From the NCBI GenBank assembly GCA_945643635.1, contig CALZFC010000248.1, forward strand, positions 6,907,501-6,971,500: DNA of 64,000 nt, given 5' to 3'. The notes below the pieces were generated by a model that saw nothing but the letters and a program-made list of their open reading frames with translations, was not told where the DNA came from and made no database searches. This document shows, piece after piece, positions 950 to 21,912 of this stretch; position 1 is the stretch's first letter, and every line of letters starts with the position of its first letter. This DNA comes from Allodiplogaster sudhausi. Taxonomy: Eukaryota > Nematoda > Chromadorea > Rhabditida > Diplogasteridae. A program made the position numbers and the translations under genes.

Positions 950-1440
950 TTTGCGTTGTATTTACATGCTTTTATCACTGTCATAATAATAATAATAAAT
1001 GTGCCACTTCTGCAACATGTGACGGACGGGTTTCGCTTCTTGTTAAAAGAATAAAAAGAAATTGTCTCATCTAATTTTTTTTGAGCCATAGCAACAGGAT
1101 TAAACTTGCAAATGTATCAAATTTGCTCAGCAGTGTTCATGACAATTTGGTTGTTCAGATATGTTCACTCGAATGATGATTGGCTTCTCTTCCTGCATTG
1201 ATATAACTGGCTTGCTTTCTTTTTTAGCGTCGAACTCATTTCAACTTTCACTACGAAATTTCTGACACATTTTCTTGTTTGCGTAATGCGGTTCCCTCCA
1301 ATGTACTTCTTGATCTGATGCGCTTTTTAATGTAATGTAAGGCACAAAACACAATGAGATGCCTTTCAGGCTTTATCGCGGAGGCCTCCTAGTTGGGCTT
1401 CTCCGTTGGGATGTCCCTCTCCTCCAGCCGCCTTCTCCAT
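950..1440. other. Intergenic AT-rich stretch
   Basis: No coding exon is seen. It holds a short run of AAT trinucleotides near 985 and then sequence related to the 3' flanks of the phosphatase copies (compare 2390-2460 and 4890-4990: a shared stretch with AATGTAATGTA and GATGCCT). Confidence 0.5.
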
Positions 1441-1447
1441 CTCCTTC

Positions 1448-1795
1448 TCAGCCTTTGCCTTCTCCTTCGCCCGCTTTCATGGCGTCCCGAATCTTTTGCT
1501 TCTCCTTCCGCATCACGTCTTCCTTGGCAGACTCGTCACTGAAAAATGTAGAGACTACAAATTTGTTTGTAGATTTAATTGATACTACTGATACTACAAA
1601 TATCAGGAAAAACCCATTTTTGCTAAGATATATTTGCCGGCTCAATAACAATATATTTTTTGTTATTTTTGAATGCATACATACCTCACGACTTGGTCGC
1701 ATTTCATGGAGAACTCCTTGACGCCGAGGGAGTCCTTGCGAGTCGCGTCAACGGCCTGCAGGTGTACACCGGCCACGACGAAGAGTGCGAAGGAA
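1448..1795 (-). pseudogene. Receptor-phosphatase 3' exons, copy A
   Basis: Two regions match the last two exons of the intact phosphatase gene at 5019-5427. Region 1685-1795 encodes ...FALFVVAGVHLQAVDATRK..., and 1448-1538 encodes a Lys/Glu-rich tail (SDESAKEDVMRKEK...) with its own stop. The donor after the first (GTATG) and the phase-2 junction are kept. The acceptor that should precede the first exon is lost: the intact gene has TTTTCAG then CAACTAG, here the sequence reads TTTTCAATTTTCC. No upstream phosphatase exons are found within 1800-2090, so it is a truncated copy, probably dead. Confidence 0.7.
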
Positions 1796-1861
1796 AATTG
1801 AAAATTAATTAATTAATTACTATTAGCGAGAAAATAAATCAATGAATAGAATCAAGAATCA

Positions 1862-2027
1862 AGAAAATTATTTGTCTGCCATCTTACGGAATCATTCGAT
1901 TTACCCATTCTCTCTGTCAACTCCAAGAATCAATCGATAAAAGAAGAAAATTATTTGTCTGCCATCTTACGGAATCATTCGATTTACCCATTCTCTCTGT
2001 CAACTCCAAGAATCAATCGATAAAAGA
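1862..2027. repeat. Tandem duplication of about 83 bp
   Basis: The unit starting GAAAATTATTTGTCTGCC occurs twice head to tail, 1862-1944 and 1945-2027, practically identical. A diverged single version lies in the matching intron of the intact phosphatase gene near 5530-5610 (CATTCTGTCTATCAACTCC), so this is duplicated gene-family intron sequence. Confidence 0.85.
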
Positions 2028-2471
2028 AAAAACCTAAATTATATTGGCAAAGCGATTCAGCAAGTGTCCATGAAGGTGGTGTCTGGGGAGCATGAATATG
2101 GGAAAATTACCAAGACGAATTTTCTGTTCTTTTCAAAGAGAATCAATTTTTATCTTATTACCCACACGCGTTTTTCAATCATATCCCCATAGACCTTGGC
2201 GAGATTTTCACAAAGTGTTGCCTATATTCTGCAACAACCTCGCCAGTATTTTCTTTCTTAGTTCACTCCCAACTTTTTTTTCAATAATCATATTTCTGAC
2301 ACATTTTGTTGTTGTAATTTTACCTTTCTTTGTTCCGCTTTTTGATGTCCACCATCCCATTTTAATGTTATTTTTTCATGTTCTTTTTAATGCGATGCAA
2401 GACACTCAACACAACAAGATGCCTCTGAGGCTTTTATCGCGGAGGTCTTTGTTCTCCCTCTTGACTCGCCT

Positions 2472-3052
2472 CTAATCCGCCCTCTCCTTCTCCCTCTCTT
2501 CTTTCTTTTTCATCGCCTTCCGCGCCGCTTTCATCGCTGCCTCTCTCTCCGCCTTAATGGCGCCCTCTTTCGCAGTCTCGCTCCTGAAAAATGAAGAGGC
2601 TAAATTCTACCATTTTTTTTACTGCAAATGGAGAATCAATGAATACCATAAAATATTTTTAATCCATTTTTTCAACGATTCATCTATTTATCGACCAGTT
2701 TGTTTAACAGTTTTTTTTAAAATCCATACGCGATGATGTCGTCGCAGAGCTTGGAGAAGTCCTCGACAGCGAGCGATTCCTTCCGAGTCGAGTCGGCGGC
2801 CTGCATGTGGACGCCGGCCACGATGAACATCGCGAAGGCGAGCTGTTGTAAATTAATTAATTATTTGATTATCAGCGAGAAAATCAATAATTCACCAGGC
2901 GAATAGAATCACGCAAAGAATCAAGGATTGAAGAGAGTGGAAGGGAACCGGGAGGGGAAAAGTAACCTCAGCAGGAAGCTGTCTTCCGGAGATCCCTTGA
3001 GGAGAACAATAGGAAGACTGATGATTAAATGATTAAATCGGCCGCTTTTATA
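2472..3052 (-). CDS. Compact phosphatase-family gene, copy B (possible 70-residue product)
   Basis: The family promoter and first exon (TATA at 3045-3052, 5' exon ending at 2967 before GTTAC) are followed directly by only the last two family exons, 2730-2842 and 2472-2583; the whole ectodomain and catalytic region are absent. The acceptor ACAACAG, the donor GTATGG, the phase-2 junction and the stop TAG (2472-2474) are intact. The first ATG in frame (2830) would give a 70-residue protein beginning MFIVAGVHMQAADSTRK and ending in a Lys/Glu-rich charged tail. This looks like an internal deletion of a paralogue that left a potentially transcribable mini-gene. It may equally be a pseudogene; no function is proposed. 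Confidence 0.5.
3045..3052 (-). promoter_or_regulatory. TATA box of copy B
   Basis: TATAAAAG on the minus strand, followed by the same start-site context (CTCCTCAAGGGATC) and first-exon donor as the intact gene and its divergent partner. Confidence 0.7.
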
Positions 3053-3264
3053 CGCCCACGAATGCACCTGGGAATTCCAAATTTACGCATAATTAAGTTG
3101 TTAACAAAGAAAATTTAATGTTTCACGAGTTTGGAAGGTGAAAATTAACAGCTTGTCGGCACTTTTCACAGAAATCTCGAAATGTAGTTAAATTTTGCAA
3201 ATATTATTGAATTTTTGAGATTCCGCTTAGAAAAGTACACTTATTTGCAAAGTTCGAGAGCAAA

Positions 3265-3315
3265 GATTGCCAGCATCCTTCCTTTTCATCCTCGTGGAAT
3301 GTGGTCGTCTTATGT
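3265..3315 (+). repeat. Family upstream element, copy 1
   Basis: It contains TTGCCAGCATCC and CCTCGTGGAATGTGGTCG followed by TCTTATGTCCCTC. Related copies lie at 10393-10445, 10816-10868, 11866-11920 (inverted), 12776-12832 (inverted) and 18785-18825, all near family promoters. It could be a conserved promoter-distal element or a hitch-hiking repeat. Confidence 0.6.
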
Positions 3316-3662
3316 CCCTCTGGTTTTTATGAACAGAAACCAAGAAATAAATAATTCCTGGGATAAACTTTCTCCGGTTATTTCTCGGTGATTGTATGCG
3401 GAAGTAAACAAAAGAATACAAAAAAATCCTTGAAAAGTTTTATGTGAAGATTAAGAGTGTTTATTCATTGACAATAAGAACACCGAACAGCGTTGCAATC
3501 CAATTGGAAGGGTGTTTCAATTTTCAAAATCTTTTTTTTTCTCTGTCTACTTGCAGTGAAAAATATCTATCAGTACATGAGCGTTTTCGTATCAGCACTA
3601 AAGAATCCGTTTTAATCCCATTTCCAAATAAAAAGTTTTCAGGGCAATATATATTTCGTTTT

Positions 3663-4074
3663 ATACCGTATTTTCTCTATTAGTGCTCCCGGGGGCACTA
3701 TTTTTCAATCCCCTTGCGAGAGGGGGCACTATTAGAGGGGGGTTCTATTAGAGGGAGGGTTACTATTTTTCAATGTGATTGGCTAAATGTTTGTAAACAA
3801 CGTAGCTCTTCTTCAATTGAATCATCACCGGAAGATCCATTTTACTGTAAATTTTGAATGAATTAGTAATTAATTCATTGGGAAGAGCCTCCAGAATCCT
3901 TTCGAGGTACATCTCGAGGCGAGGTATTAGACTAATAGGGGGGCACTATTGGAGGGGGGGGGGGGGTTCTATTAGAGGGAGGGGTACTATTTTTCAATAC
4001 CCTCGCGAGAGGGGGGCACTATTAGAGGGGGGGTTCTAATAGAGGGAGGGGCACTAATAGAGAAAATACGGTAT
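3663..4074. mobile_element. MITE-like element with 24-bp perfect terminal inverted repeats
   Basis: The ends 3663-3686 (ATACCGTATTTTCTC...) and 4051-4074 (...GAGAAAATACGGTAT) are perfect inverted repeats. The interior carries several G-rich units of the form GGGGGCACTATTAGAGGGG with TTCTATTAGAGGGAGG, and two copies of CTATTTTTCAAT. At about 410 bp and without coding capacity it is a non-autonomous DNA transposon. A target-site duplication is not clear. Confidence 0.75.
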
Positions 4075-4079
4075 GTATG

Positions 4080-4980
4080 TATGTATGAGCAATGCAAATT
4101 TGAGATTCCACTTTGAAAACTACACATATACATATATTTAAAATTTCAAGAGCATGAAATTACCAATTCTTTCACTAAAAAATTTATGGACATTAGAACG
4201 CCATGTAGTGCATTTATAGTTTGCAAAATTTTATTAAATTTTTAGTAGTAAAGGAGCCCCCACTCCCTCCTCCACCTTACACATGGTTTTCATCTCTTTA
4301 TACGTGAATTCGATGATTTGGAATCGACATTGAACGTTTGAAAGATCAAATCGAATACGTTTTACTACTGTAGAAAGATTACCCGGAAGGCTCCTTTAAT
4401 AATAATCTTCATTCTAGCACATCAACTATCTTTTAAATCAATCATCTTTAATAAATCAATTAAGCCTCTTTTCAAGTAATAATTTTTTTCATCCAATTAA
4501 CTGCAAAGATTACATTAAAAAATTAGTCAATTGTTATTCGGCAAAAAACTCTAAAAAGTGCATAAATTCCATCAAGGTCATTAATTTTCCAAATTATTTT
4601 TGTTATTGTTATTTGTTACCCCGAGTAATGGATAATCGAAGTTTTTGTTAATTAAATGAATAATTGATAAAACAGTTTCTTTATTACCGATCTCTTACAA
4701 GCTTTATTATATTTTAATCTCATCCTGATGAATATTCACCGTCATATCGCAAGCAAAAAACACATCTATCTCTCCTTCTCTCACAATCAGAAGAGTATTG
4801 TTTTATACTGACTATACCATTCACCAAGTGTCAAATTCAATTCCCTTTTCTTGTTTTCGTTTACTGTTCATCTTTCCCTGGTTTCCCCCATTTTAATGTA
4901 CTTCTTGATTTGATGTGCTTTTTAATGTAATGTACGACACAAAACACAACAAGATGCCTCTAAGGCTTTTATCGCGGAGG
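4080..4980. other. AT-rich gap downstream of the receptor phosphatase gene
   Basis: No coding signal is visible. It contains the 3' flank of the phosphatase gene; several AATAAA-type motifs are present but none can be chosen with confidence. Confidence 0.5.
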
Positions 4981-5018
4981 CTTTTTGGTTGGGCTTCTCC
5001 CGACGCTCTTCATTGTCT

Positions 5019-8000
5019 CTACATTCCCACTCCTCCAGCCGCCTTCTCCATCTCCTTCTCAGCCTTCGCCTTCTCTTTCTCTTTCTTCGCCAGCTTGGCA
5101 GCTTTCTTCTCCATCCTTTTCGCCATCGCCTCTGCCTTCTTCTCTCTTTCGACGTCTTCCTTGGCGGACTCCTTACTGAAAAATGTAGAAAAAATATTTG
5201 TTAAAAAAAAAAGATATTTGTTTGTAAATTCAATTTATAGGACAAATATCAGGAAAACCCATTTTTGCTAATTTATAATTGCTAGCTCAATTTTGTTTAT
5301 CGCATACTTACCTAACCACCTGGTCGCACTTCATGGAGAATTCCTTGACGTCGAGGGAGTCTTTGCGAGTCGCGTCGGCGGCCTGCAGGTGAACACCGGC
5401 GACGATGAAGAGCGCGAAGGCTAGTTGCTGAAAAATACTTAATTAATTATCAGCGAGAAAATCAATAATTCACCGGGTGAACAGAATCAAGAATCAAAAA
5501 ATTGATTAAGAATTTAAGGTACCAATTATTCGACTATTTTGTGTGCCACCTTACGAAATTATTCGATGTTCTCATTCTGTCTATCAACTCCAAGGATCAA
5601 TCAATAAATGTACACTGACACTTGGCTCTTGAATAGCACCGTGGCGGCGGTAGCGGATCGACTTCGCAAGGGCGTACACGATGTCCGTGGTCAGCTCGAC
5701 CTTCTGGAAGGCGAGCTTCAGCAGCATCTGCAAGAAGTCATTTTTATATTTGTTTTATTTTGATCTTATTTTTTAAATGTTTACCTGGACAAGAAGGAAC
5801 GCGCCCGTGCGCCCGATGCCTCCGCGGCAGTGCACGAGGAGGCGCTCGTCAATGTGGGTCACCGTTTTGTAGACACGGAACGCGACATCCTGCAATGATG
5901 GACGGGTGGGCGGAGCTTAACACGATAACGCTTAGGTGGGCAAACATTCCAGTATAACCACACTGTCATCGGAGCTTACGCTCCATTAGGCCAAGTGGGA
6001 GCAGCTAGATGTTTCAGAGCTAAGAGTAAACAGCATCGATGAGGAGCCCAAACTTACGAAGATGTCGGATCGCTCGGTGGGAATGTCATGGTCGGTCCAA
6101 TCATGGTAGTGGAAGTGGTGCAGAACGTACGTGCCCGACTTACCCGACTCGTCACCCTTCAGCGTGATGACCACCTTACGATAGGCGTAGGACTTCTGCA
6201 AAAATCGTTTGTCGAATTTTGTCACGATGACTCCCCTCGCATCTCATTCTTACCCCTCACTTCCCACTTTGCGGTGCATTCCACAAATGCCCATATTATT
6301 TCTTGTGCCACATAAGCATATGTTAATTAGCATTGTTGTCAATGTGGCTTTTGTTTGACTTTAAAAGTCAGTTTGCTCGACAGCGCTCCTTGGGAGCGGT
6401 TGCTCCTCCCTCCCTCGTATTATTTTATTGTTGCCTTCGGGCCAGTTGCTTGATAAAAGCAAGTCCAGTTTCGCCAGTCCCAGTCCTCTTCACATCCAGT
6501 CGACAGATAAGAAGCCGGGAGAGCTTCATTACAATTTTCAATGGTCCTTTGATTATGTCCCCCAAAAATTTGCGACTAGGTGTATTCTTAAACTTTTAAA
6601 ATTTTCCGCCAAAAAGAAACCTTGTCCTCGACTTCCGCAACACGCACGTCGACCGTCGCATTCCCCACCTTCATCTGCGGAAGCGCGTACTTCTTGAGCT
6701 CGAAATAGTCGCAAGGCGACTGTAAAAATCGGCGGACGATTTGAATCTTTCTTTTCGTTCCGTCAGTAAATTTATTGTATTTATTTTTCTTCATTATTCC
6801 CCTTTCAATTAATTGATGACAGAGTCCTGCATTTAAGGAAGAATTTAAAACTAAATCCGTTCAATAAAGAAAAAAAAATCGATAGATCGAGAAAAGCAAA
6901 CGGACATCACCGACGATTTCGCCATTCTGCGTAAGCTGCATGATGCAGCGAACGTCGGCGTACACGAGGCTCAAGAAGAACAAGCCGTAGATGTCTTTTG
7001 ATGGGCACTGAAAATTGTTAATTTTGAAGATAACATTTTTTTGATCTACTATACATTGTTCTTTATTATCTGTATCTCACGGCCATTCAAACCGCGCGGG
7101 ATATTGGAATTCATATAGGGCTGCTACGCAAACTCGCAGTTTGTATGAACTCGAAATTGGCAGGAAGGTGCATCCTAATGCTTTAGCATAGTGGGCTGCT
7201 ACGCAGTGCAAGCAAGAAACACTTGCTCCTTTTGAAATATACTTATGAAAACGCGCCTGCGCCGCGATGAAGAGCTTCTCGTCGTCGAGCCAGTTCCAGT
7301 GCATTTGCTCCTTGCTCGGCAGCTCTGTGTCCACGGCAGTCGCGGCGATCAGCGGAACGTCGGAGAAGCTGTACAAGATTTTTGATTACCGATTTATTGG
7401 CGATCAAATTGGATAGAAATCAACTGTTGTGCAAATTTTGCGCAGAAGCGGCGATTTCGCAACGATTTGACACTTTTGAAAATAAACGTGCGAAATGGCA
7501 CGTACGCTCCAAGCACTTTCTTGGGACCGCCCTTCGGAATGAGCTGAGAGGCGGGGACATTGCGCACGTCGCTCTTGTCAAATTTGAGCCAGCGGTCGAG
7601 GAGAGCCCGAGGGTCGCACTTGGACAGGACGGTCGGCAGGGTGGCTGCAGGGATTGCTATTTAATTTATTTCATTAATTTATTTCATAACCACTTCTTGA
7701 ATTTTTAGTTAATTGTATACTTATGTTAAATGTATTTCATCATCATGATTTTTTCCTAATTCCTTTCCAGTGCTCATGATTACGCTTGCATCTAGCATTT
7801 TAAAAAAAATAAATTTTAATAAGTCACCCCTAGCAATCTTCCGGAGCTCGCGGTCGAGCATGCCCTTTCTGTAGTAGAAGACGGCAGCTCCGAGGCCAAT
7901 CACTAAAGTATGCTCAAATTGGCAAATGTATGGAGATTGTTCTTTTACAATCGTTAAAATAGATATTAAAAATAGAAAATAAATTGTTGGTAATAAAAAA

Positions 8001-8934
8001 TTAGCATTACGGAGAATGAGGAGTACGAAGGGGGCAGGGATGATGGCCGCGTACGGAAACTTGTCGTTTTTCTCCTTTTCATCATCCCATCTTTTTTCCA
8101 ACTCCTCGCGCTCCTTTTCTTTTTCCTTTTCCGACTTCTCATCTAATATTTTCTTCATTGCCGCGCCAATCGTCGTGTACCACGCGCTCTTCCGATCCAA
8201 ATTCCATTCCTGAAAATAAGTGGAATAGATTATGGTGTATTTCATTTCAACATATTGTTTAGACCTGATTCAGGGCGTTACAGGCGCGTCCAACTTCGCT
8301 CAGGCAGAAGCACTCGAAAATGGGAGACGAGATGTCGAAAGGCTCAGCCTGAAATTGAAATAAATCATTATTTATTTATTTCTCATTTATTTTTCATTTC
8401 AACTACAAAGCAAAATTGCAAGTACGAACATTTTAAACCTTGACGCAGGTATTGTTTAGCATCTCGTCGGGGAGCTTCTCCACACAGCCGAAGCCTGTTC
8501 CGTTTGAAACTTCAAGCTTGTGAAAATCGTAGAAGATCTTGGTTTTACAGAAGGAGAAGATACCAGGGCAGGCCACGCGAGGATCGTCGCCCTTCTGGCA
8601 GCGATGCTGGAAATAGAAGAAATGTTTAACACAATTTGATCGGTTTTCTTGTATTTTTTTATTTTTTATTTTTTATTTTTGCTGGAACAAAAACAATCAA
8701 AAGCCGACATTCGGGTCGGGCGTCGTTGTGGGCGGACGAGTCGTAGGGTGCGCTGCCTGATACTTTGCCACTGCCTCCGCCAGAAGCCGTTCCTGAACAT
8801 TTTGCAAATTTAGATTAGGCTAGACATTTATTTGCCCATATGTATGTCTGAAACAAAAGATCACTGCTATGTCAGGATCGGTGGTGCAGCTAGTCTTCGA
8901 GCGACTGTCGCAGAAGCATCTGAACCTGAAAGAA

Positions 8935-8972
<38 letters not shown>

Positions 8973-10112
8973 AGGAGGCATTCAAAATGTATGTACCAGT
9001 TATCTTTGTTAGAGTCCATAATGCATCCGTCCCTAACAGAAGAGCCCTTGCCGCAGCCTTCGAAGTCTTTATCGTGCTTGGCCTCCGTGTCGTACACCTT
9101 GTCCACCGTTAGTTTGATCCGAAGAAGACAGTACGGAGCGTCAGCAGAGCACTTATCGTGATCTTTACCATTGAGACATTTTCCGAGAGGTCCCTGAATG
9201 TGACACGTTTTTAAAACCAGTGGACTTTTTTGTGAATTACTTCAACCCATCGACTTTCAACACTTCTATCGCATAATAAAATGCTCTTTTTCTTGTGCAA
9301 TTTCGAATGTCATTAAAGTGTTACGGGAGTCGCATTGGAGAACCCGGCTACAGGAGCCGCGTCAGAGAGTCCAAGGAGAAGGAGGAGAGGAAGAGAGATG
9401 AGCAGAAGAGGGAAGAGGCGAGTCATTTCTGCAATAGGGAGGAAAGTTAGAATTGTGATATCTATATTAGGATGGGAAAGCGAGGGGGAAAGGGAAAAGT
9501 GAAAAGGGAGGGTGAGGGGAACAGTGAAATGGAGAAAGGGGAGAGGAAGAGTGATAGGAGAATGGGAGGGGGAAGAGTGAAAGGTGAACGGGGAAGGGGA
9601 AGAGTGAAAAAAGAGGGGAGGGGAAGAGTGAAAGGTGGACGGGGAGGGGAAGAGTGAAAGGAGAACGGGGAGGGGGAAGAGTGTAAGGTGGACAGGGAGG
9701 GGGAAGAGTGAAAGGGGGAGGGGGAAGAGTGAAAGGGGGAGGGGAGTGGGGGGGGGGAGAGAATGAAAGGAGAACGGGGAGGGAAAGATCAGATATGAGA
9801 GAGAGAGGGAGGGAGAGGAAAGAGTGAAGAAGAAAAGGATGTGAGGGAAAGACTTGATGGACAATGGGAAGCTGCAGAGGAGGAAGAGAGTGAGAGGGAA
9901 AGTTAAAAGGTAAGGGACGACTAGAAATTGTAGAGGGGTGGCGGAGAGTGAAAGAAGAAGGGGGAGGGGGAGAATGAACGGAGAACGTGGGGAGGGAGAA
10001 TGGAAGGAGAACGGGGAGGGGAAAGTAACCTTAGTAGTAGCAGCTTCCGTCGATCCCTTGAGGAGAACAAACGGAAGAATGATGAGGAAATGACAAATCA
10101 GCCCCTTTTATA
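5019..10112 (-). CDS. Receptor-type protein tyrosine phosphatase with novel 8-Cys modules
   Basis: Minus-strand gene, start ATG at 9426, stop at 5019. Exons: UTR ending 10030; 9325-9428, 8997-9193, 8865-8925, 8709-8792, 8439-8606, 8265-8348, 8011-8209, 7828-7902, 7506-7644, 7257-7368, 6906-7007, 6621-6719, 6058-6195, 5785-5889, 5620-5727, 5312-5427, 5019-5175. Coding sums to 2046 nt (681 residues) with every junction in phase. Order: signal peptide MTRLFPLLLISLPLLLLL; two 8-cysteine modules (residues about 35-120 and 150-232) joined by a Thr/Pro linker; charged stalk; membrane span (IIPAPFVLLIL...); cytosolic phosphatase with FIAAQ, DWTDHDIP, VHCRGGIGRTG and the Q-loop AIQEP; Lys/Glu-rich tail. 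The nucleophile Cys and Arg are present, so catalysis is plausible; the WPD loop reads WTD and no clear pTyr-recognition loop is seen. The intron at 7256 seems to use a GC donor. The 6906 boundary is approximate. Ligand and substrate unknown. Confidence 0.82.
5785..5889 (-). other. PTP signature exon
   Basis: The exon encodes DVAFRVYKTVTHIDE followed by RLLVHCRGGIGRTGAFLLVQ. It matches the HCxxGxGR(S/T) loop of class I Cys-based phosphatases, with nucleophilic Cys, phosphate-binding Arg and the Thr after it all present. Confidence 0.93.
6058..6195 (-). other. WPD-loop exon of the phosphatase
   Basis: It encodes VVITLKGDESGKSGTY and then HHFHYHDWTDHDIPTE. This aligns with the family pattern HFxxxxWPDHGVP; the general-acid Asp is kept, but Pro is Thr and the following Gly is Asp. 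Confidence 0.85.
8011..8209 (-). other. Stalk and membrane-span exon
   Basis: It encodes a Lys/Glu-rich heptad-like stretch (KSEKEKEKEREELEKRW), then YAAIIPAPFVLLIL. The span is completed by the next exon (7828-7902, IGLGAAVFYYRKG), which ends in a basic stop-transfer sequence. Confidence 0.8.
8439..8606 (-). other. 8-Cys module, first half (receptor)
   Basis: It begins HRCQKGDDPRVAC, then FSFCKTKIFYD, GFGCVEKLP and NNTCVK: five cysteines. The next exon, 8265-8348, adds FECFC and GRACN to give eight. The same two-exon unit is repeated three times in the divergent gene at 14579-16218. Confidence 0.85.
8938..8969. repeat. (AT)n microsatellite in the receptor gene intron
   Basis: A TATATA run inside the intron between the 8865-8925 and 8997-9193 exons. 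The matching run in the other palindrome arm (14228-14272) is longer, a visible length difference between otherwise near-identical arms. Confidence 0.85.
9460..10020. repeat. Purine-rich intron 1 of the receptor gene
   Basis: It holds imperfect repeats of GGGGAGGGGAAGAGTGAAAG, mirrored as pyrimidine repeats at 13205-13740 in the right arm. Open reading frames crossing it are compositional artefacts. Confidence 0.85.
10102..10112 (-). promoter_or_regulatory. TATA box of the receptor phosphatase gene
   Basis: TATAAAAGGGG on the minus strand, about 75 bases upstream of the first-exon donor. The mirrored copy in the other arm is at 13124-13134. Confidence 0.75.
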
Positions 10113-10905
10113 CGGCCAGAATTGCATAAAGGAATTCCTGTTTTTCGCATAATTAGGGTAAAAAACAAGGAAACTTCAATGTTTCGTGACTTTGAAACGT
10201 GAAAAAATTACAGTTTATCAGCTCTTTTCAAAGAAACCACGTGATGAGAATTTAATTTTTTGATATGCAATAAAATAGGTTTATTTGCATGTTTCCCAGA
10301 AAACATAGTGATCTTTAATTTTGCAAATTTTCTGGGATTTTTGAGATTCCACGTAGGAAAGTACACGTATTTGCAGAGTTCGAGAGGAAAGATTGCCAGC
10401 ATTCTTCCTCCTCATCCTCGTGGAATGTGGTCGTCTTATATCCCTCCGCTTTTTGTTATCCCAATCCAAGCAATACATAATTACTTGGGTTGTTTACTTA
10501 GTGATTCCATGTGGAAGATTGATGAAAATTAATGGGTGAATTGGGCGAGTTTTTTTTTCGGAATATCAGTGCTGAACTTCTATGTGAGGGGATTTCTTCG
10601 CATTTTTCAAGGTACGATTTGCTTGTAAATTTACATTTATGAGATTCCACGTAGGAAAGTACACGTATTTGCAATGCATTTTGGGAATTCCAGTTTTTTG
10701 CTTAACTGTCTTGGCAACAAGGAAGTTCAATTTTCTGCATTTTTCCAGAAACCACTAGTGAATTTACATTTATGAGATTCCACGTAGGAAAGTTTGCAAA
10801 GTTCGAGAGAAAAGATTGCCAGAATTCTTCCTCTTCATAATCGTGGAATGTGGTCGTCTTATATCCATCTGCTTTTTGTAAACTCAATCCAAGAAATAAA
10901 TAGAG

Positions 10906-11824: not shown

Positions 11825-14223
11825 GAGTTATTTATTTCTTGGATTGAGTTTACAAAAAGCAGATGGATATAAGACGACCACATTCCACGATTATGAAGAG
11901 GAAGAATTCTGGCAATCTTTTCTCTCGAACTTTGCAAATACGTGTACTTTCCTACGTGGAATCTCATAAATGTAAATTCACTAGTGGTTTCTGGAAAAAT
12001 GCAGAAAATTGAACTTCCTTGTTGCCATGACAGTTAAGCAAAAAACTGGAATTCCCAAAATGCATTGCTGGCCATCATGCAAATAACTCGTGCGTATTAA
12101 GCCGATTTTATAATTTTAGAATAGAATGCTATATTTTCAACAACAGAACCATTCTATTTAAATTAACTTTTAAAACCATAATATGTACAAATTTATGCAC
12201 ATTAAACTCTGTCAAATTTAATCAAAATCTGGATTGTTCTTTTTCGTTCATAGCTAGAGATTACTTGATGAAGGCGTTCAAAATATTCATCACATGTGCT
12301 CAGGAGAGACGATCGAATGTTAATAATTCATCAGGACCTGATACGAAGCAGATTAAGCTTGTTTTGCATCATTTTTGGAATCTTCTTATCTAAGATAATT
12401 ATAGGGGTCAAACTTTGCCTTAAAAACAAAATATATTTCCCAAAAATGGTAAAATTACGCGATATTACAAAGTTAGTGGAAAATTGGACTTTTCAAGTAA
12501 AGATTGCAAGAAACGTAATTGTTGTATTAGATGTAAAATTCGTATTCTGCATACCAAAAAAAGCACTTGAAATCATTCAAGGGCAAGTATACAAGCAAAT
12601 GGTACCTTGAAAAATGGGAAGAAATCCCCTCACATAGAAGTTCAGCACTGATATTCCGAAAAAAAAACTCGCCCAATTTCACCCATTAATTTTCATTAAT
12701 CTTCCACATGGAATCACTAAGTAAACAACCCAAGTAATTATGTATTGCTTGGATTGGGATAACAAAAAGCGGAGGGATATAAGACGACCACATTCCACGA
12801 GGATGAAGAGGAAGAATGCTGGCAATCTTTCCTCTCGAACTCTGCAAATACGTGTACTTTCCTACGTGGAATCTCAAAAATCCCAGAAAATTTGCAAAAT
12901 TAAAGATCACCATGTTTTCTGGGAAACATGCAAATAAACCTATTTTATTGCATATCAAAAAATGCAAAAAATTAACAAAATTAAATTCTCATCACGTGGT
13001 TTCTTTGAAAAGAGCTGATAAACTGTAATTTTTTCACGTTTCAAAGTCACGAAACATTGAAGTTTCCTTGTTTTTTACCTTAATTATGCGAAAAACAGGA
13101 ATTCCTTTATGCAATTCTGGCCGTATAAAAGGGGCTGATTTGTCATTTCCTCATCATTCTTCCGTTTGTTCTCCTCAAGGGATCGACGGAAGCTGCTACT
13201 ACTAAGGTTACTTTCCCCTCCCCGTTCTCCTTCCATTCTCCCTCCCCACGTTCTCCGTTCATTCTCCCCCTCCCCCTTCTTCTTTCACTCTCCGCCACCC
13301 CTCTACAATTTCCAGTCGTCCCTTACCTTTTAACTTTCCCTCTCACTCTCTTCCTCCTCTGCAGCTTCCCATTGTCCATCAAGTCTTTCCCTCACATCCT
13401 TTTCTTCTTCACTCTTTCCTCTCCCTCCCTCTCTCTCTCATATCTGATCTTTCCCTCCCCGTTCTCCTTTCATTCTCTCCCCCCCCACTCCCCTCCCCCT
13501 TTCACTCTTCCCCCTCCCCCTTTCACTCTTCCCCCTCCCTGTCCACCTTACACTCTTCCCCCTCCCCGTTCTCCTTTCACTCTTCCCCTCCCCTCTTTTT
13601 TCACTCTTCCCCTTCCCCGTTCACCTTTCACTCTTCCCCCTCCCATTCTCCTATCACTCTTCCTCTCCCCTTTCTCCATTTCACTGTTCCCCTCACCCTC
13701 CCTTTTCACTTTTCCCTTTCCCATCCTAATATAGATATCACAATTCTAACTTTCCTCCCTATTGCAGAAATGACTCGCCTCTTCCCTCTTCTGCTCATCT
13801 CTCTTCCTCTCCTCCTTCTCCTTGGACTCTCTGACGCGGCTCCTGTAGCCGGGTTCTCCAATGCGACTCCCGTAACACTTTAATGACATTCGAAATTGCA
13901 CAAGAAAAAGAGCATTTTATTATGCGATAGAAGTGTTGAAAGTCGATGGGTTGAAGTAATTCACAAAAAAGTCCACTGGTTTTAAAAACGTGTCACATTC
14001 AGGGACCTCTCGGAAAATGTCTCAATGGTAAAGATCACGATAAGTGCTCTGCTGACGCTCCGTACTGTCATCTTCGGATCAAACTAACGGTGGACAAAGT
14101 GTACGACACGGAGGCCAAGCACGATAAAGACTTCGAAGGCTGCGGCAAGGGCTCTTCTGTTAGGGACGGATGCATTATGGACTCTAACAAAGATAACTGG
14201 TACATACATTTTGAATGCCTCCT

Positions 14224-14275
<52 letters not shown>

Positions 14276-14395
14276 TTCTTTCAGGTTCAGATGCTTCTGC
14301 GACAGTCGCTCGAAGACTAGCTGCACCACCGATCCTGACATAGCAGTGATCTTTTGTTTCAGACTGTTAATGTGTTATATCAATGTCTAAGATAA
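11825..14395. repeat. Right arm of large inverted duplication
   Basis: Inverted near-copy of 8840-10905. It contains the promoter and first exons of the plus-strand secreted paralogue. The segment 12070-12600 has no counterpart in the left arm. Confidence 0.9.
13124..13134 (+). promoter_or_regulatory. TATA box of the secreted paralogue
   Basis: TATAAAAGGGG, mirror of the receptor gene promoter. The two genes are divergent, with promoters about 3.0 kb apart. Confidence 0.75.
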
Positions 14396-16540
14396 ATCAG
14401 CCTAATATTCAGGAACGACTTCAGGCCGAGGCAGTGGCTCTGTATCAGAAAGCACACCCTACGACTCGTCCGCCCACAACGACGCCCGATCCGAATGTCT
14501 CTAATAAATGAATTTTTCAATATATTTAAGAAATATCAAAAAGTACATCAAAGTGAGTTTAAACTTATTTTTTTCCAGCATCGCTGCCAGAAGGACGGTG
14601 GTCCTCACGAGGCCTGCCCCAATTCCTCCTTCTGCCACACCAAGATCATCTACGACCCTGGCAGTTTCCAGTCTCTCAACCATGCTGGCCTCGGCTGCGT
14701 GGTCAAACTCCCCGACCAGATGCTAAACAGTACCTGCAGCAAAGTTTAAAATGCTCTTAAATGCAATTTTGTTTTATATTTCTAAATGAGAAATAAATAA
14801 GCAATGATTTAATTCAATTTCAGGCTGAGCCCTTCAACATCTCGAACCCGATTTTTGACTGTTTCTGCCCGAGTGAAGTCGGCCACGCCTGCAACGCTCT
14901 GGACGATGTTCATCTAAGCATCTTCAAAGACATTTTACTGATATGACAAATATATATAAAACTTGCTTTAGGCGATGAACTCGATTCGGAAGAAAAAGTG
15001 GGAGATCGAGGGAGGGAACATGCTGGCAGAAGTTATCAAGGAAGTTGTCAAGGAAGAGGCAGTCGAGATGTATAAGCTGTCACAAATTACGACACCCGAC
15101 CCGAACGTCATCTATTTTTAAAAATAATTTAGTGAAACATAGGATATTGTTAAAACTAATTTGTAATTCAGTTTTCGCTAACTATAAAGAATGTTTAGTT
15201 AGAAATATGTAGCATTTACACCCAACACGTAACTCCTAAAAAATGTAAAATAAAAATGGGGCAAAACAATTAATGAAAAACTGCTGTTCTTCTCGGTTCC
15301 AGCACTACTGCCTGAATGGCTCCTCTCCGGTTGTCTGTTCTGCTTCCTCGTTCTGCCACTCCAAGATCTTCTTCGACCCGGCCGGCCGCTACCAAAACAA
15401 TCACACTGGATTTGGTTGTGCTGTAAAGCTGCCAGAGGGAAGCCCAAAGAACGGATGTCGCAAGGTTGTGTTTATTATTGCATTATGTTTTAAAAACGAT
15501 TAAAAAAATTACTTGCAGCTGGAGCCTTTCCTCCTCTTCAAACCGGCGTTCGAGTGTTTTTGCCTAAGCGAGATTGGCCACGCATGCAACAACTTGGATG
15601 AGGTCAACTTGTAATCTGAAATGCTGCAGGATATCCTCTAGATATGCCAATACTCTATGAGGGAAGGGTTGTCTGTTTATTTCAGTTATAAAATTGTTTT
15701 AGGCGACGAATATAAAGCGGAAGGACATTTGGTATCGCAAAAGCCTCGAACTGCTAACTGAAGCTGAAGAGGCGCAGACTACGACTCCACCGCCCACAAC
15801 CACGGCCGATCCGAATGTTGATTTATTTCTTTAATGATATAAAAATCTTTCAAACATCTATTAATTCTAGCACCGCTGCCTGGAGGGCGCCGCTCTTCTC
15901 GTGGCCTGCAATGGTTCCTCCTTCTGCCACTCCAAGATCTTCTACAACCCGGAAACCCTCCAGCCTTCCAAGCGAATCGGCCAAGGCTGCGTGGAGAACC
16001 TCCCCGACGAGGCACTCAACAACAGCTGCCAAAAGGTGTTTAAATAACAACTTCCTAAGATAAATATAAAAAAACGCAATCACTTAAAAAGTTGTAGTAC
16101 TGTTTGTTTAATATTTATTTATATTTCATAACAGGTTGAACCTTTCGACATCTCGGATCCGGTCTTCGAGTGTTTCTGCCCGAGCGAAGTCCGCCACGCT
16201 TGCAACGCTCTGGACGAGGTAGAATCAAGCTTTGAAAACACTTTTACAGAAAAAAAAACAGAAAAGAAGTTTCTTGTTTTAGGAGATGAACTTGGACCGG
16301 AAGGCAAAGTGGGAGGGCAAGGGCGGGAAGATGCTGACAGAAGTTGTCAAGGAAGTGACCAAGGAAAAGGCAGTCGAACTGGCACTCGAGAACTGTAAGA
16401 AGGAACAAACTGCAGCCCCTCTGTGCACTACAGCCCCTCCGTCCATTACAACGGCCGATGAGAACGTCAGATCATATCCTTGTTTTTCAATACTTTTTCG
16501 ATACTAAAAATATGTACTATGGGTGCAAAATGCAAATAAA
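13124..16540 (+). CDS. Secreted protein with four 8-Cys modules
   Basis: Exons: UTR ending 13206; 13768-13871 (ATG at 13770), 14003-14199, 14285-14345, 14413-14496, 14579-14743, 14824-14907, 14972-15106, 15303-15464, 15519-15602, 15703-15816, 15871-16035, 16135-16218, 16283-16507 (TAA). Coding is 1662 nt, 553 residues. The signal peptide and first module match the receptor phosphatase almost exactly. Three further modules follow, each encoded by three exons with phase-0 borders: a five-Cys exon (HRC...FCHSK...GC...C), a three-Cys exon (EPFxIS..F.CFCxSEVGHACN) and a linker exon ending in a Thr/Pro stretch and DPN. There is no membrane span or phosphatase exon; after the last linker the frame runs through an unused donor-like site (AAC/GTCAGA) to a stop, then AATAAA. 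It is predicted to be extracellular. I do not recognise the module; a soluble antagonist or co-ligand role is inference. Confidence 0.8.
16535..16540 (+). terminator. Poly(A) signal of the secreted paralogue
   Basis: AATAAA 28 bases after the stop codon; it supports termination here rather than splicing to missing phosphatase exons. Confidence 0.6.
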
Positions 16541-17565
16541 GTCAAGTTAGTTGTATTAAAATATGAACATGTATGCAAAAATATGAAAATATGCATGATC
16601 ATGCAAATTTGGTAAATTTAGTTCAGGCTGCCCTATAGAGAACACATCATTAAATGGCTTAATTAACTACTTATTAAAACGAAGTTACAGTTTCTCTTTC
16701 TTTCGAATATGAAATGTTCAGACGACCTCCGGCTCTCACAACGCGCTCTTCCTCGGCTGCCCTCTCGGAAGGTTCCTCCTTCTCCTCCTCCTTCTGGCTG
16801 GACCCTCCTTCTCTCTTCCATTCTCTCCCACGCATTAGTCACCGCTTCCAAACAGTCCATAAATGTTTTGAGTTATGACATGACTTTTTGTTACATCAGC
16901 GAATCAGCGCAATTGGGAAGGAAAGTTGTCACCAAGGAAGGGTCAAAGTGAAAAGGAATGCTAATGTGCGAATTACTTTGTACATATTTTGAATGTATTA
17001 ACTTCGCAACGTAAACATTGTTTTAATTTTTCAGAGTTTATTCATTATGAATGCTTATAAATATGTATGTACATATCATGATTTTAAAACTTAAATCTAA
17101 ATATGATTTTTTTTGTTGAAAATATTGCATTTTATTCTTAAAATTATACAAAATCGGTTCGTCCATGGAAAATGTAATCATTTGTTTGCATAATGGACAA
17201 GGAAAGCATTTGGAAATTGCACTTCGTTTCGGACACTCGAGAATCCATGGACAATTATTAATTTTTTTGTATAACGTTTAATGATGGACATTTTTTCTTG
17301 AGAATAAATTATGTTAATACATTTTCAACCACTAATATAAAAATAGAGATTATTTCAATAGAGTAGAACGATTATGAAATAAGTGTGAAGAAGCTCGTCC
17401 GCACATTCATATCAATTCCGTTACATCTCCTCGTGATTTCCCATTTTAATGTTCATATTTCCAATACATTTTCTTTTTCATTTTACAATTCATCTTCCAC
17501 CCGCTACCCCCCCCCCCCTCTTTAACTACCCATTCCCCATGTACTTGACTTGATGCGCTTTTTAA
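16541..17565. other. Gap without supported gene
   Basis: AT-rich. A splice-like segment at 16730-16775 (TTCAG then ACGACC, donor GTTCCT) is too short to support. Near 17500 there is a run of C and sequence resembling the 3' flank of the phosphatase copies. Confidence 0.5.
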
Positions 17566-17569
17566 TGCA

Positions 17570-17935
17570 ATACAAAACACCAGGCACGATTAACTTCTCG
17601 GAGCTTTATTCCGAGAGGCCTCCTAGTCCGTCTTCTCTTCTCTTTCGGGTCCTCCAGCGGCCTTCTTCTTCGTCTCTCTCTTCCTTTGCGGACTCGACCC
17701 TGACAAATCTCGAATTCAGAGAATACAATATTTTTTGAAATTCAGTTGAGTCTACAAAATATATTTGTCGGCCCAATTAGTTTCATAGTATTTTATTTTT
17801 GTTTTTGAATACATTTAATTTTCATCGCAGGGCTTGGAGAACTCCTAGACGCTGAGCGAGTCCTTTCGAGTCGCGTCAGAGGCCTGCAAGTGGGCGCCGG
17901 CCACGATGAACAGGGCGAAGGCGACCTGCTGAAAA
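17570..17935 (-). pseudogene. Receptor-phosphatase 3' exons, copy D
   Basis: The penultimate-exon match at about 17825-17932 reads QVAFALFIVAGAHLQASDAT, then hits an in-frame TAG (17845-17847) where the intact gene has a sense codon. The tail-exon match at 17615-17715 is short and diverged. The stop makes it a pseudogene. Upstream (18165-18870) lies family 5' flanking sequence in the same order as at the other copies. Confidence 0.7.
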
Positions 17936-18159
17936 TTATATAATTAATTAATTATAACAGAAACCCAATAATTTGCTTGATGCAAGGAATCGAGAATCAC
18001 GACATTCATCACAGTAAGAAAAGATCAGAGATAAGAAAGAGTGTGTAGGAGAAAGGGAATGCTAGGGTAGGATGTTGAAGAGGAAGAAGAGAGGGAAAGG
18101 AAGAGGAAAAGAGAAAAGGGAAGGGACGATTGATAACTGAAGAGTGAACGGGGAAGGGA

Positions 18160-18880
18160 GATACGTATTCATTGGGGCGCTTATTCGGAACATATGTGCC
18201 CTCCCCTCCTTCTGAAGGGGTTGGGGAGATCTTACAATTTTTAAAATTACTTTTTTGCCTGTTTTTTTGTAAAGCGGAACATGAATTTTACGTCTATTAA
18301 AACAATTATGTTTTTTTTGTAAACTTTTATATGCACTCTCACTATTCTACAAATTTAAGTAATATCGCTTATTTTTACCATTTTGGCCAATATTTTGCCT
18401 CAAATTACCGCTGTAAATATGCATCCCGCATGAAAAAACAAACGTTGTTTTGTTGTTGTGAAATAACGAAAATGAGTTCGAACAACTTGGATGCAATTCT
18501 TGCCCCCCCTGCTTCGTATCGGGGCAGGAGAATCAATAACAATCGATTTGATGTTTTTTCTGGAGCTTATTTGATGAACATTTTCATTCGAATAATACAG
18601 ACATTGATAATAATTTATTTATTGGGAATGCTTGTCATTATTTTAAAACTTAAAGTGAAAAGGGAAGGGACGAGTGGGATATGAAGCGTGAAAGGAGAAG
18701 GAGTATAGGAGAGTGAAACGGAACCGGGAGGGAGAAGTCAAGTAATGTACTTTTTTGAGACTAATGTTCGTCAATCATTCATCCACTTCATCCTCATGGA
18801 ATGTGGTCGCCTTATATCGCTCTGTTTTTTTAACTCTCGCTCTGCCAAAGCAATAAAAATTCATTTATTATAAAACTCAC
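18160..18880. repeat. Diverged upstream segment of the phosphatase family
   Basis: It contains GCGCTTATTCGGAACAT and GTAAATATGCATCCCGC, inverted relatives of 11730-11765 and 11515-11560, and at 18795-18820 the GTGGAATGTGGTCG motif found upstream of the other copies. Confidence 0.6.
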
Positions 18881-19033: not shown

Positions 19034-19593
19034 CAGTCCCGCTCAACATTGTTGGGTCCGGTATTAATAGTATTAATAGTATTAATATAAATAATACAAA
19101 CTCTAATAGCGCGCTGAATACGCATTTTCGTGCCATTTCGCGTAGGAGTTTACCTATTTCGACCATGGAGATTACGACTGTGAAGACCGTTTTCAAAAAT
19201 ATGCCGAAATGGCTGGGATCTCATAATATTGCATTTAAGTTGGCCGTGTTTGGGTTCCAAACGGGCTGGCTTCAACTCTTGGACTACAAAGTGCAAAATA
19301 AAGTGAAAATTTCAGAGCACTTCTTACCTTTTTTGAGTTTCTTGTTTTATTTCTTTTGAGTTTCTCATTTTGTTTATGTATAAATGACAGAAAAAAAAGC
19401 AAAAAATTTTTTTCGTGCTTGCAAAAATCTGTTCTCAAAAGGGTATCGAACCGAGACCCTGAGATTGCCGGTCAAAGACTTAGCAATACTCTACATACGA
19501 TACAGGCAGATCTGATTATACCTCTCTTTGGACAGCGTCGATTGCTCACAAAGGAAACGTCGTTTCTGAACACGTTCGGTCATACTTTAGTGG

Positions 19594-19631
<38 letters not shown>

Positions 19632-19883
19632 AGGAATGCGAGTGGACGAGAAAGAAGGAGAGAGGGAGAAAGTGAAAGAGAGACCGGTGGAGCGAGAAAT
19701 AGAGAGCGGGAGAGAGAGAAAGGGATAGAGAGAGGGCGAGAGAGCGAGGTGAAAGAAGGTGCAGGTGCTGTTAGCTGACAATGAGAAAAAATCGTTGATC
19801 TAACGACATACCGCAGCTTCAGCCTTGAAACGGTGACGCAGAGTAGATGTAGTCGACGCTGCACCTTCTTTCGCCTCTCTTTC

Positions 19884-19914
<31 letters not shown>

Positions 19915-20482
19915 GTTTTCCACTAAAGTAGGAAACAGAGAGTGCTCAGAATCGACGTTTCCTTTATGAGCAATCGACGCTGTCCAAAGAGAGGTATAAT
20001 CAGATCTGCCTGTATCGTATGTAGAGTATTGGCAAGTCTTTGACCGGCAATCTCAGAGTCTCGGTTCGATACCCCTTTGAGAACAGATTTTTGCAAGCAC
20101 AAAAAATTTTTTTTGCTTTTTTTTTTCGTCATTTATACATAAACAAAATGAGAAACTCAAAAGAAATAAAACAAGAAACTCAAAAAAGGTAAGAAGTGCT
20201 CTGAAATTTTCACTTTATTTTGCACTTTGTAGTCCAAGAGTTGAAGCCAGCCCGTTTGGAACCCAAACACTGCCAACTTAAATGCAATATTATGAGATCC
20301 CAGTGATTTCAGCATATTTTTGAAAACGGTCTTCACAGTTGTAATCTCCATGGTCGAAATAGGTAAACTCCTACGCGAAATGGCACGAAAATGCGTATTC
20401 AGCGCGCTATTAGAGTTTGTATTATTTATATTAATACTATTAATACTATTAATACCGGACCCAAAAATGTTGAGCGGGACTG
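19034..20482. mobile_element. Long foldback (TIR) element
   Basis: The ends are CAGTCCCGCTCAACAT (19034) and ATGTTGAGCGGGACTG (to 20482). Arms of about 550 bp are near-identical inverted copies; both would encode the same 64-residue frame starting MEITTVKTVF, so those frames are repeat artefacts. The arms flank a centre with (GA)n, then (CT)n. TAGGTA directly abuts both ends (19028-19033 and 20483-20488): either a 6-bp target-site duplication or a TA duplication with chance matches. No transposase is seen, so it is non-autonomous. Confidence 0.85.
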
Positions 20483-20489
20483 TAGGTAC

Positions 20490-21120
20490 TATGTATCTTG
20501 CTTACCTAGATAACAACATGTTTCAAACATGCTGCAAAATAGGCTTACCATTAATCCTCTTTGTATTGGGTGATACGATAAGGTTTAATTTCGGGTGTTT
20601 TTCACACATGACTAAATGTTATTTTTAACAAATTGGAAGTTTTAAGACCCATTGTTCAAAGTGAAAAAATGCTCATGTCAGAATTAAGAAGTTTTCTAAT
20701 TGTCCTTTTTTCGAATATTAGACTTTAGTACCGATTTGGATTTTTTTTGTATTTCATCACTTAATTACCATTAATGAAATTTCGTTAGAATGCTCCAGAC
20801 AATGATTTGCATAATACTATTTAAATGCGCATGGTCCACATGACAAAATTAGAACAGTCACAACCTAATTTATTCAATCCTGATTACATTTAAATGCACG
20901 CACGAATCGAAACACGAAATTTTCATCTTCACAATTTAAATTACATCGATATATATATATGGAAAAAATTACCAGTTGGTTGAATATTTATTGCCCATGT
21001 GATTTTTGCAAAAAAAACATTATCATTAAATGATGTTTATTTACTGATTTTGGTAAAGCAGTTCGTTGTCAGCATTCAAAGAGCAATCAAAACATTTCTT
21101 TACGCGAAGAGAAGGGACGA
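20490..21120. other. AT-rich intergenic stretch
   Basis: No coding exon found. The 3' UTR of the minus-strand gene at 21125-21803 must begin here. Confidence 0.5.
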
Positions 21121-21124
21121 GGAT

Positions 21125-21803
21125 TCAGTTTGCGGGGATAACGGTGACTTTGTTCGGAGCAGAAGCGAATTCCTTCGTGTGGGTGCGTGCTTCTCGCCCG
21201 GAACTGCTGCCATTCTTCTTCTTCTGCAACTTCTTCCACGCGAAGATCAGGGCTAAAAGTAGAGTTAATATCAATCTTGGATATACATATAAAAGCAATA
21301 ATAAGGAACAAAAAAAGACATTATATCGCGAAGATAGACTAACATCTCAGAAACATCAAGCATTATCTAAGTAATAACTGTTTTGGAGATTAACCACCGC
21401 AGATGACAACGAGAAGCGTAGCGAGAGCGAGGGTTGGCGACTGGATGAAAGACTGGCCAAAGGCCTGATTCTCGGTGGCGAAGGGCAAGTCGGCAGAACG
21501 CTCGTTTCTTGCACGGTAAGCCTGAACCTCCCTCTTCTGCCATTTCTGGTAGAATTCTGTGACGCTCTCCTCCTTCTCCGGCACGTCCGTCCATTCCTGA
21601 TAGAATTCGGTGACCGTCTCCTCGGCCTCCTTCCTCCTCTTCTCCTGGTCCTCCCGAAACTTCACCATCGCCTCATGGTATTCCCGCTCGTTGATGTAGT
21701 AATTGTTAAAGAATTTAATCACCCACATCCCGGGCGAGGGAATGTAGACCGGCACAGACGCAATCCAGTCCGAGACATCGCGCACGATGGAGTCGATTCC
21801 CAT
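21125..21803 (-). CDS. Small single-pass membrane protein, unknown
   Basis: Two exons, 21395-21803 (ATG at 21803, MGIDSIVRDVSDW) and 21125-21252 (stop TGA), joined in phase 1, give 178 residues. Features: a charged region at residues 48-100 with two similar motifs, VTEFYQEW and VTEFYQKW, about 20 residues apart; a hydrophobic segment near residues 120-143 formed across the splice junction (ALATLLVVICGGALIFAW); and a basic stop-transfer KKLQKKK, with a short tail ending VTVIPAN. There is no signal peptide, so a type III orientation is possible. A TATA box sits upstream, as in the phosphatase family. I do not recognise it and propose no function. Confidence 0.7.
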
Positions 21804-21912
21804 TCTGGTGGACGAGGCGGAGGAGGATTGGACAGGAAGCAGATAAGAAGAGAATCAGCCGCCTCCGCAGCAGAGCAGAAAGCGATGAAGACGAGAACTG
21901 AAGAGAAGCAGC

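Follow-up and report, generated by a model that had tools for sequence, protein, structure and literature searches.

Divergent gene pairs around a receptor-type tyrosine phosphatase of Allodiplogaster sudhausi and the matching of their outer eight-cysteine module

Only a limited range of ectodomain types has been described for receptor protein tyrosine phosphatases (RPTPs), many of which have no clear ligand. A stretch of 64,000 nucleotides from the nematode Allodiplogaster sudhausi (assembly GCA_945643635.1, contig CALZFC010000248.1, positions 6,907,501 to 6,971,500; this whole stretch is called the window) raises the question of what might be recognised by a receptor-type protein tyrosine phosphatase (PTP) whose ectodomain is built of eight-cysteine (8-Cys) modules. 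The phosphatase, encoded by gene A (5019..9426, minus strand), carries two such modules, and a second gene, gene B (13770..16838, plus strand), is divergent and lies head to head with it, a signal peptide being common to both. Module 1, the outermost module, was found to be matched at 80% or more peptide identity in seven of the nine divergent pairs of this genome in which it could be tested, the window pair among them. The preliminary description of the locus had proposed a lineage-specific receptor class in which a ligand controls tyrosine dephosphorylation. Three parts of that proposal stand, namely a receptor-type PTP, modules for which no family match was found and a class that recurs; three features had been missed, namely a partner gene with a tail resembling a glycosylphosphatidylinositol (GPI) signal, a large inverted repeat, and a module 1 that is matched within pairs and fast-changing between them, and these are the most informative features of the locus.

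Divergent pairs and the matching of module 1

Gene B was modelled with 14 exons encoding 578 amino acids, with a signal peptide, four 8-Cys modules joined by charged linkers and a hydrophobic C-terminus; neither a PTP nor any Pfam match was found in it (exon model, Pfam and hydropathy). The combination of a signal peptide with a C-terminal hydrophobic tail after small residues fits the pattern of GPI-anchored proteins, as judged without a dedicated predictor. The tail, encoded by the last exon (16722..16838, plus strand; TTSGSHNALFLGCPLGRFLLLLLLLAGPSF...) and recognised from the model, from hydropathy and from conservation at other loci, is kept in seven B genes elsewhere (L010, L016, L017, L018, L019, C41 and C242:3.68 Mb; L and C numbers are our labels for loci and contigs). 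Module 1 of gene B, on exons 2 and 3 (14003..14345, plus strand), is identical at 195 of 197 and 61 of 61 nucleotides to module 1 of gene A (8865..9193, minus strand; exon 2, 8997-9193, and exon 3, 8865-8925), which was delimited by the exon model, shuffle tests and pair comparisons. The two gene starts form the arms of an inverted repeat, each arm taking in the upstream region and the first six exons of its gene (left arm, 8271..10652, gene A; right arm, 12565..14901, gene B), with 90% identity over 2417 columns. Nucleotide identity between the two genes is 99-100% from 1 kb upstream through exon 3, introns 1-2 included, and 76-88% from intron 3 on (exons 4-7).

Ten divergent pairs were compared: the window pair, L010/L009, L015/L016, L018 (both genes), L011/L019, C41 (L024/L025), C60:416/430 kb (L032/L017), C242:3.68 Mb (L030 and L034/L031), C75 (L028/L029) and C53 (L026 and L035/L027). 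One partner is an A gene and the other a B gene in all seven pairs of known type (the window, L009/L010, L015/L016, L018, L011/L019, L032/L017 and C41), and module 1 was visible on both sides in nine of the ten. Its peptide identity within the pair was 98% in the window, 96% in L010/L009, 84% in L015/L016, 80% in L018 and 34% in L011/L019. The C41 pair shared 43 of 47 residues (91%), L032/L017 47 of 51 residues (92%, five residues between two matching pieces being omitted) and the C75 pair 16 of 58 residues (28%), and at C242:3.68 Mb one stop differed in 70 residues (about 99%; 99.6% over 1182 nucleotides). Unpaired A-B comparisons of module 1, by contrast, averaged 40% with a maximum of 66% (n = 43, from the first five pairs and four other genes), and the true pairing of the first five pairs was the best of 120 matchings. 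The corresponding effect for module 2 was small (first exon 64% within pairs versus 58% between; second exon 72 versus 71%). Seven of the nine pairs show the pattern of paired receptors, that is, near-identical outer modules with different tails, on the assumption that module 1 binds the ligand.

The A-side gene at C41:976-979 kb (L025, L033) encodes a distant PTP (45-50% identity, two exons), yet its module 1 shows the 91% identity given above to that of its divergent B neighbour. Since this gene still shares module 1 with its neighbour, pairing spans PTP subfamilies as far as these sequences go. Two A-type copies with equal-scoring module 1 were also observed tail to tail at C268 (351444-354214, plus strand, and 363566-366264, minus strand), and matching of module 1 may not require divergent orientation.

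The rate of change between loci was assessed as the ratio of nonsynonymous to synonymous change (dN/dS) by the Nei-Gojobori method (NG86). Among seven A genes the median for module 1 was 0.81, with dN above dS in 9 of 21 comparisons, and 1.13 when the shared cysteines were removed (12 of 21), as against 0.56 and 0.19 for the two module 2 exons and 0.08-0.28 for three PTP exons; L011A, whose module 1 frame is lost, was left out, as were L014A from the exon 13 row and L018A, whose sequence stretch ends too early, from exon 14. PTP exons among the A genes have a mean identity of 80-90%. By these comparisons module 1 varies fastest between loci, and its rates suggest diversifying selection.

A proposed paired-receptor reading and competing explanations

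The reading that we favour, and to which we would give an even chance, is that A and B are paired receptors, one signalling through a PTP and the other GPI-like, and that gene conversion preserves the match between their recognition modules. Genes A and B would together make up a single member of a large family of receptor pairs transcribed divergently. A would be a type I receptor PTP that carries the two 8-Cys modules, and B a GPI-like surface protein that consists of an ectodomain only and has the module in more copies. Module 1, outermost, would form the recognition surface, changing fast between loci, and gene conversion across the inverted starts of A and B would keep it near-identical within the pair. 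Because of this near-identity both members of a pair would recognise one common partner, or one another, and matching would make sense if A and B must keep the same specificity. B, lacking a cytoplasmic part, would compete for the ligand, present it or gather it into clusters, in the role of a competitor, a co-receptor or the actual partner; in A, occupancy would be converted into dephosphorylation, either through a ligand-driven change in PTP clustering or through displacement from contacts. If so, the paired-receptor principle of vertebrate immunity and plant self-incompatibility would act through a phosphatase in an invertebrate. For an RPTP class whose module is undescribed, the sequence alone indicates the neighbouring gene as a likely partner and certain residues as possible carriers of specificity, and the natural matched and mismatched A-B pairs suit a direct binding test.

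A number of observations weigh against this reading. Two of the nine pairs are unmatched: L011/L019, where the peptide identity is 34% as L011 loses its frame (exon 2 DNA, 74%), and C75, where the L029 copy has a stop. Module 1 is thus broken in both unmatched pairs, yet it is also broken in two matched ones, since C242:3.68 Mb has a stop in one copy, and L032 matches L017 in two pieces 13 nucleotides apart where 15 are expected, so that its module 1 is probably frame-shifted. In the tenth pair, C53, module 1 was undetected on one side, and for the A genes L012, L013 and L014 no B partner was found within the stretches examined on the expected side. Among six B genes module 1 gave a dN/dS of 0.68 (dN above dS in 1 of 15 comparisons), or 0.82 without cysteines (5 of 15), beside 0.62 for module 2. 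The NG86 values themselves are pairwise, non-independent and drawn from about 50 codons, and misalignment can raise dN. An AlphaFold prediction of gene B module 3, translated through its 54-nucleotide intron, was unusable (predicted local distance difference test score, pLDDT, 33.8).

The main rival, neutral conversion between the inverted starts, also counts among these points, as it could homogenise the gene starts without any function. Divergent duplicates would on this account exchange sequence through their inverted-repeat starts, and module 1 would be merely the nearest coding part, weakly constrained and drifting, with no matched recognition; we regard this as a serious possibility, if not a probable one. 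It agrees with the window pair, where the tract of 97-100% identity includes the upstream region and introns, and with a module 1 dN/dS near 1, as under relaxed constraint. It also agrees with the gentle fall of identity downstream of module 1 in L009/L010 and L018, whose two module 2 exons are still 87 and 79% and 81 and 81% identical (74 and 77% in L015/L016). Relaxed constraint has, moreover, been reported for the converted SIGLEC11/16 exons (PMC5701461). The upstream side of the tract, however, speaks against it. Exon 2 through exon 3 of L009/L010 are 98-99% identical, with 66% in the preceding 400 nucleotides and 42% farther upstream; in L018 exons 2 and 3 reach 89 and 86% versus 50 and 60% upstream, and in L015/L016 the exons reach 92 and 89% versus 83 and 80%. 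As the sequence just upstream of exon 2, which is nearer the palindrome centre, is less alike than exon 2 itself in L009/L010 (66 versus 98%) and L018 (50 versus 89%), the identity peak coincides with module 1 rather than just with the palindrome centre, and has a shoulder on its module 2 side. The retention of the cysteine scaffold in module 1, and the 12 of 21 A-A comparisons in which dN exceeded dS once shared cysteines were removed, likewise argue against neutral homogenisation.

Self- or kin-recognition haplotypes are a second alternative, in which module 1 of A would have module 1 of B as its ligand, in a homophilic contact made in cis or in trans, and a single recognition specificity would correspond to each pair, in the manner of linked receptor-ligand genes. 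Head-to-head linkage, near-identity within pairs, high divergence between loci, and the many copies on many contigs would all be expected of such haplotypes. The tgrB1 and tgrC1 genes of Dictyostelium are divergent neighbours without a PTP, and they are not known to be near-identical to each other, which detracts from the comparison; they are described as specifying two polymorphic membrane proteins that form an allorecognition system. On balance we consider this alternative distinctly unlikely. The paired-receptor reading can itself be extended in this direction: linked pairs of a receptor phosphatase and a surface tag throughout the genome, with module 1 as both the tag and its own receptor, could constitute a polymorphic self-recognition system working through tyrosine dephosphorylation, conversion matching tag to receptor and positive selection separating the pairs. 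We offer this extension only tentatively, as an unlikely one.

RPTPs, paired receptors and gene conversion are each known already; a class of RPTPs built on an 8-Cys module, arranged head to head with partners whose outer module matches, was not found among the top-ranked results of our literature searches. The vertebrate CEACAM and SIGLEC11/16 receptors resemble A/B in having a near-identical ligand-binding domain with different tails, maintained by conversion (PMC5112662, PMC5701461). In Xenopus CEACAM the conversion of some pairs does not reach beyond the ligand-binding N exon, and the paired genes are oppositely oriented (PMC5112662); by analogy this is the closest case to the A/B conversion tracts among the papers compared. 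CEACAM and SIGLEC differ, however, in their immunoglobulin (Ig) folds and in signalling through immunoreceptor tyrosine-based inhibitory or activation motifs (ITIM/ITAM), whereas A/B combines an 8-Cys module with an intrinsic PTP versus a GPI-like partner and occurs as several separate head-to-head pairs. SLG of the Brassica S locus is a secreted protein. For this locus (SRK/SLG) the catalytic domain is reported as the least diverse part (PMC10316313), a likeness to the A genes. In contrast to A/B, which occupies many paralogous loci with no ligand gene seen, SRK is a kinase and belongs to a single locus of many alleles, where the ligand has a gene of its own (SCR). RPTP gamma and zeta resemble our proposal in being receptor PTPs that bind GPI-anchored contactins in cis or in trans (PMC10815196), so that a GPI partner for an RPTP has precedent. 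They differ from A in a carbonic-anhydrase/fibronectin III (FN3) ectodomain, to which contactin is not known to be homologous, and in having PTP domains in tandem.

Gene A, its family and its modules

Gene A was modelled with 17 exons encoding 681 amino acids, its coding sequence running on the minus strand from the ATG at 9426 to the stop at 5019 with no frame break over the 681 residues. This independent exon model reproduced the signal peptide, two 8-Cys modules, Thr/Pro linker, membrane span and PTP of the preliminary description in one phase-consistent protein. The extent of 5019..10112 given there was reduced to a coding extent of 5019..9426, as 9427-10112 is upstream sequence, noncoding in the 17-exon model. 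Exon 1 (9325..9426; MTRLFPLLLISLPLLLLLGLSDA...) encodes the signal peptide, as judged by hydropathy, and is followed by module 1, by a linker with a Thr/Pro stretch on exon 4 (8709..8792; 88% identical to gene B exon 4 at the nucleotide level) and by module 2 on exons 5 and 6 (8265..8606). Exon 7 (8011..8209) carries a module-type linker together with the first part of the membrane span, and exon 8 (7828..7902) the remainder of the span with a basic juxtamembrane stretch; the hydrophobic span starts at residue 288 and has a Kyte-Doolittle value of 2.61 across 19 residues. The PTP domain lies on exons 9-16 (5312..7644; exon model, Pfam and Protein Data Bank, PDB), and exon 17 (5019..5175) encodes a Lys/Glu-rich tail and the stop, all on the minus strand. 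Signal peptide, ectodomain, single span and cytoplasmic PTP in one predicted protein make this a receptor-type PTP. Introns in the region are short with TTTTCAG-like acceptors, and those of gene A are GT-AG throughout except intron 10 (exon 10/11), a GC-AG intron required by the frame; several donors are weak.

As exon 7 holds both a linker like those of gene B and the start of the membrane span, ectodomain and receptor are predicted to belong to one transcription unit. The preliminary description had asked whether the modules and the PTP exons might belong to separate genes; this is answered by the order of module 1, linker, module 2, linker with transmembrane span, and PTP, which is repeated in the A genes at L009, L011, L012, L013, L014, L015 and L018 of the same genome and bears out the notion of a receptor class. 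The window's own genome (351.8 Mb, 382 contigs) gave at least 218 exon-level matches to the ectodomain (E up to 10; 586 candidates, 150 scored) and at least 169 to the PTP (E up to 1; 270 candidates, 129 scored), counts that are lower bounds, in which one gene yields several matches and weak matches may be chance. Among the matches listed, a module was found within 5 kb upstream on the same strand at 26 of 35 PTP places, these being places judged to cover the WPD-loop exon, with part of the listed module matches compared and with two places sharing modules with a nearer one. Given these 26 places, the fusion of modules and PTP recurs in the genome as judged by sequence. Exon 7 and the 26 upstream modules together led us to reject a wrongly fused pair of genes. 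That the model nevertheless joins two genes, that gene A is a dying copy or that the palindrome is misassembled is scarcely credible: the GC-AG intron, the weak donors and the broken state of several paralogs and tails are in its favour, but set against them, besides exon 7 and the 26 places, are PTP exons that change with dN far below dS and pairs that recur on several contigs with differing identity. At L015 (C60:387-389 kb) a second PTP copy was observed directly 3' of the complete A gene, with a transmembrane span preceded by a stop; a module was not detected in it.

The eight cysteines of gene A are spaced 8, 6, 24, 9, 11, 1, 7 in module 1 and 9, 6, 20, 12, 14, 1, 7 in module 2, an agreement reached by 17 of 100000 random placements, and an intron falls between Cys 5 and Cys 6 in both. 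Sequence likeness between the two modules is weak, the score being reached by 359 of 2000 shuffles with cysteines fixed; against a profile of the other four modules the score of module 1 was reached by 27 of 5000 cysteine-fixed and 11 of 5000 free shuffles. Module 2 is clearly repeated in gene B, none of 2000 shuffles reaching the score for any of the three modules, and its dN/dS pairs against gene B modules 2, 4 and 3 are 0.25/0.67, 0.26/0.63 and 0.44/1.88. Exon 16 of the PTP gave 0.04/0.59, 0.22/0.57 and 0.13/1.25 against its three copies in the window. Because dN is below dS in the comparisons of both, module 2 and PTP exon 16 have each been under past protein-level selection by this measure.

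The statement that the module matches no known ectodomain family was upheld by profile searches. Searched at E up to 10, neither any of the window's five distinct modules nor the whole of gene B nor an artificial majority sequence gave a Pfam match, with HMMER filters that discard weak matches, and no PDB sequence match was below 0.02. Two CD276 chains (0.023 and 0.026) and TNFSF13 (0.73) were taken as chance, as were Insulin_TMD (0.11) and ETRAMP (0.18) below the cut-off in gene A, whose whole protein had no Pfam match above the cut-off outside the PTP. On these grounds the protein was not placed in any of the known RPTP subgroups (FN3, Ig, MAM and carbonic-anhydrase ectodomains). The ET module (PF01684, nematode, 8-10 Cys) and Ly6-like domains presumably have a similar cysteine order, with a C-terminal Cys-x-Cys ... 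Cys-Asn ending; no Pfam match was seen, and PF01684 in particular matched none of the five distinct modules at E up to 10. In the protein collection no homologue was found for the whole gene A protein (7993 candidates scored, E up to 0.01) or for gene B (5940 candidates, E up to 1), and the PTP part of gene A found one distant PTP protein (848 candidates), P0001 (789 amino acids, source lgn), with two PTP matches and 25% identity to that part. Because ordinary animal PTPs did not turn up, the collection appears to hold few animals, which suggests that missing homologues say little on lineage. The genome contig collection gave 21 pattern matches to gene B with no relative among them. Literature searches on nematode PTPs and such modules returned, among top-ranked results that are no proof of absence, no nematode PTP with these modules; as most of the 57 PTPs reported to be expressed in C. 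elegans are unstudied (PMC10909979), unannotated relatives of the class may exist.

The PTP of gene A matches PF00102 (Y_phosphatase) with E 4e-29 and 102.3 bits against a cut-off of 20.9 (residues 392-597), from position 30 of the 234 in the profile, and its top PDB matches are RPTP-alpha and LAR. Alignment to these two showed the catalytic Cys, the Arg, the loop Asp and the Q-loop Gln (QEPSQ) to be present, the P-loop HCRGGIGRTG lying in exon 14 (5785-5889) and the acid loop in exon 13 (6058-6195). PTPs characteristically carry a WPD loop, a catalytic Gln and a KNRY phosphotyrosine-recognition loop that bears on substrate fit. In gene A the acid loop reads WTD, and by eye the KNRY loop is unrecognisable, with LGAFSD at the expected place. 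An earlier assignment as an active-site-intact PTP can thus be retained for the P-loop and loop Asp, and is qualified by these two loops. Given the relevance of KNRY to substrate fit, phosphatase activity is left as a prediction.

Other elements of the window

The last two PTP exons recur in three further copies around the pair, all on the minus strand. The first (1300..1941) includes the 3' flank, is 71% identical to 4895-5608 and has no acceptor AG; the second (2356..3362) is internally deleted, an upstream-like block of gene A (2933-3362) being joined directly to the exons (2356-2936); the third (17536..18024) has an in-frame stop and is convergent with gene B. By sequence comparison they are repeated internal deletions of the same gene. 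The copies at 1.3-2.9 kb are disfavoured as alternative last exons of gene A, one lacking the acceptor AG and one abutting the upstream-block copy. Blocks resembling the A/B spacer were seen upstream of the third (18172-18830).

Beyond gene B, a long inverted repeat around GA/CT tracts was noted by eye at about 19040-20490 as a foldback-type element. On the minus strand, 21128-21854 may encode a single-span membrane protein with two TEFYQ-W repeats (21393-21854 has no Pfam family above the cut-off), and 30938-34660 holds a retroelement of the type without long terminal repeats (non-LTR), with a reverse transcriptase (PF00078, 1.7e-33; 30938-32383), an endonuclease (PF14529, 2.1e-10; 32593-33387) and a further open frame at 33725-34660. 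Downstream of gene A, 3692-3765 and 3981-4056 form a direct repeat (89%) of GGGGGCACTATTAGAGGGGG-type sequence.

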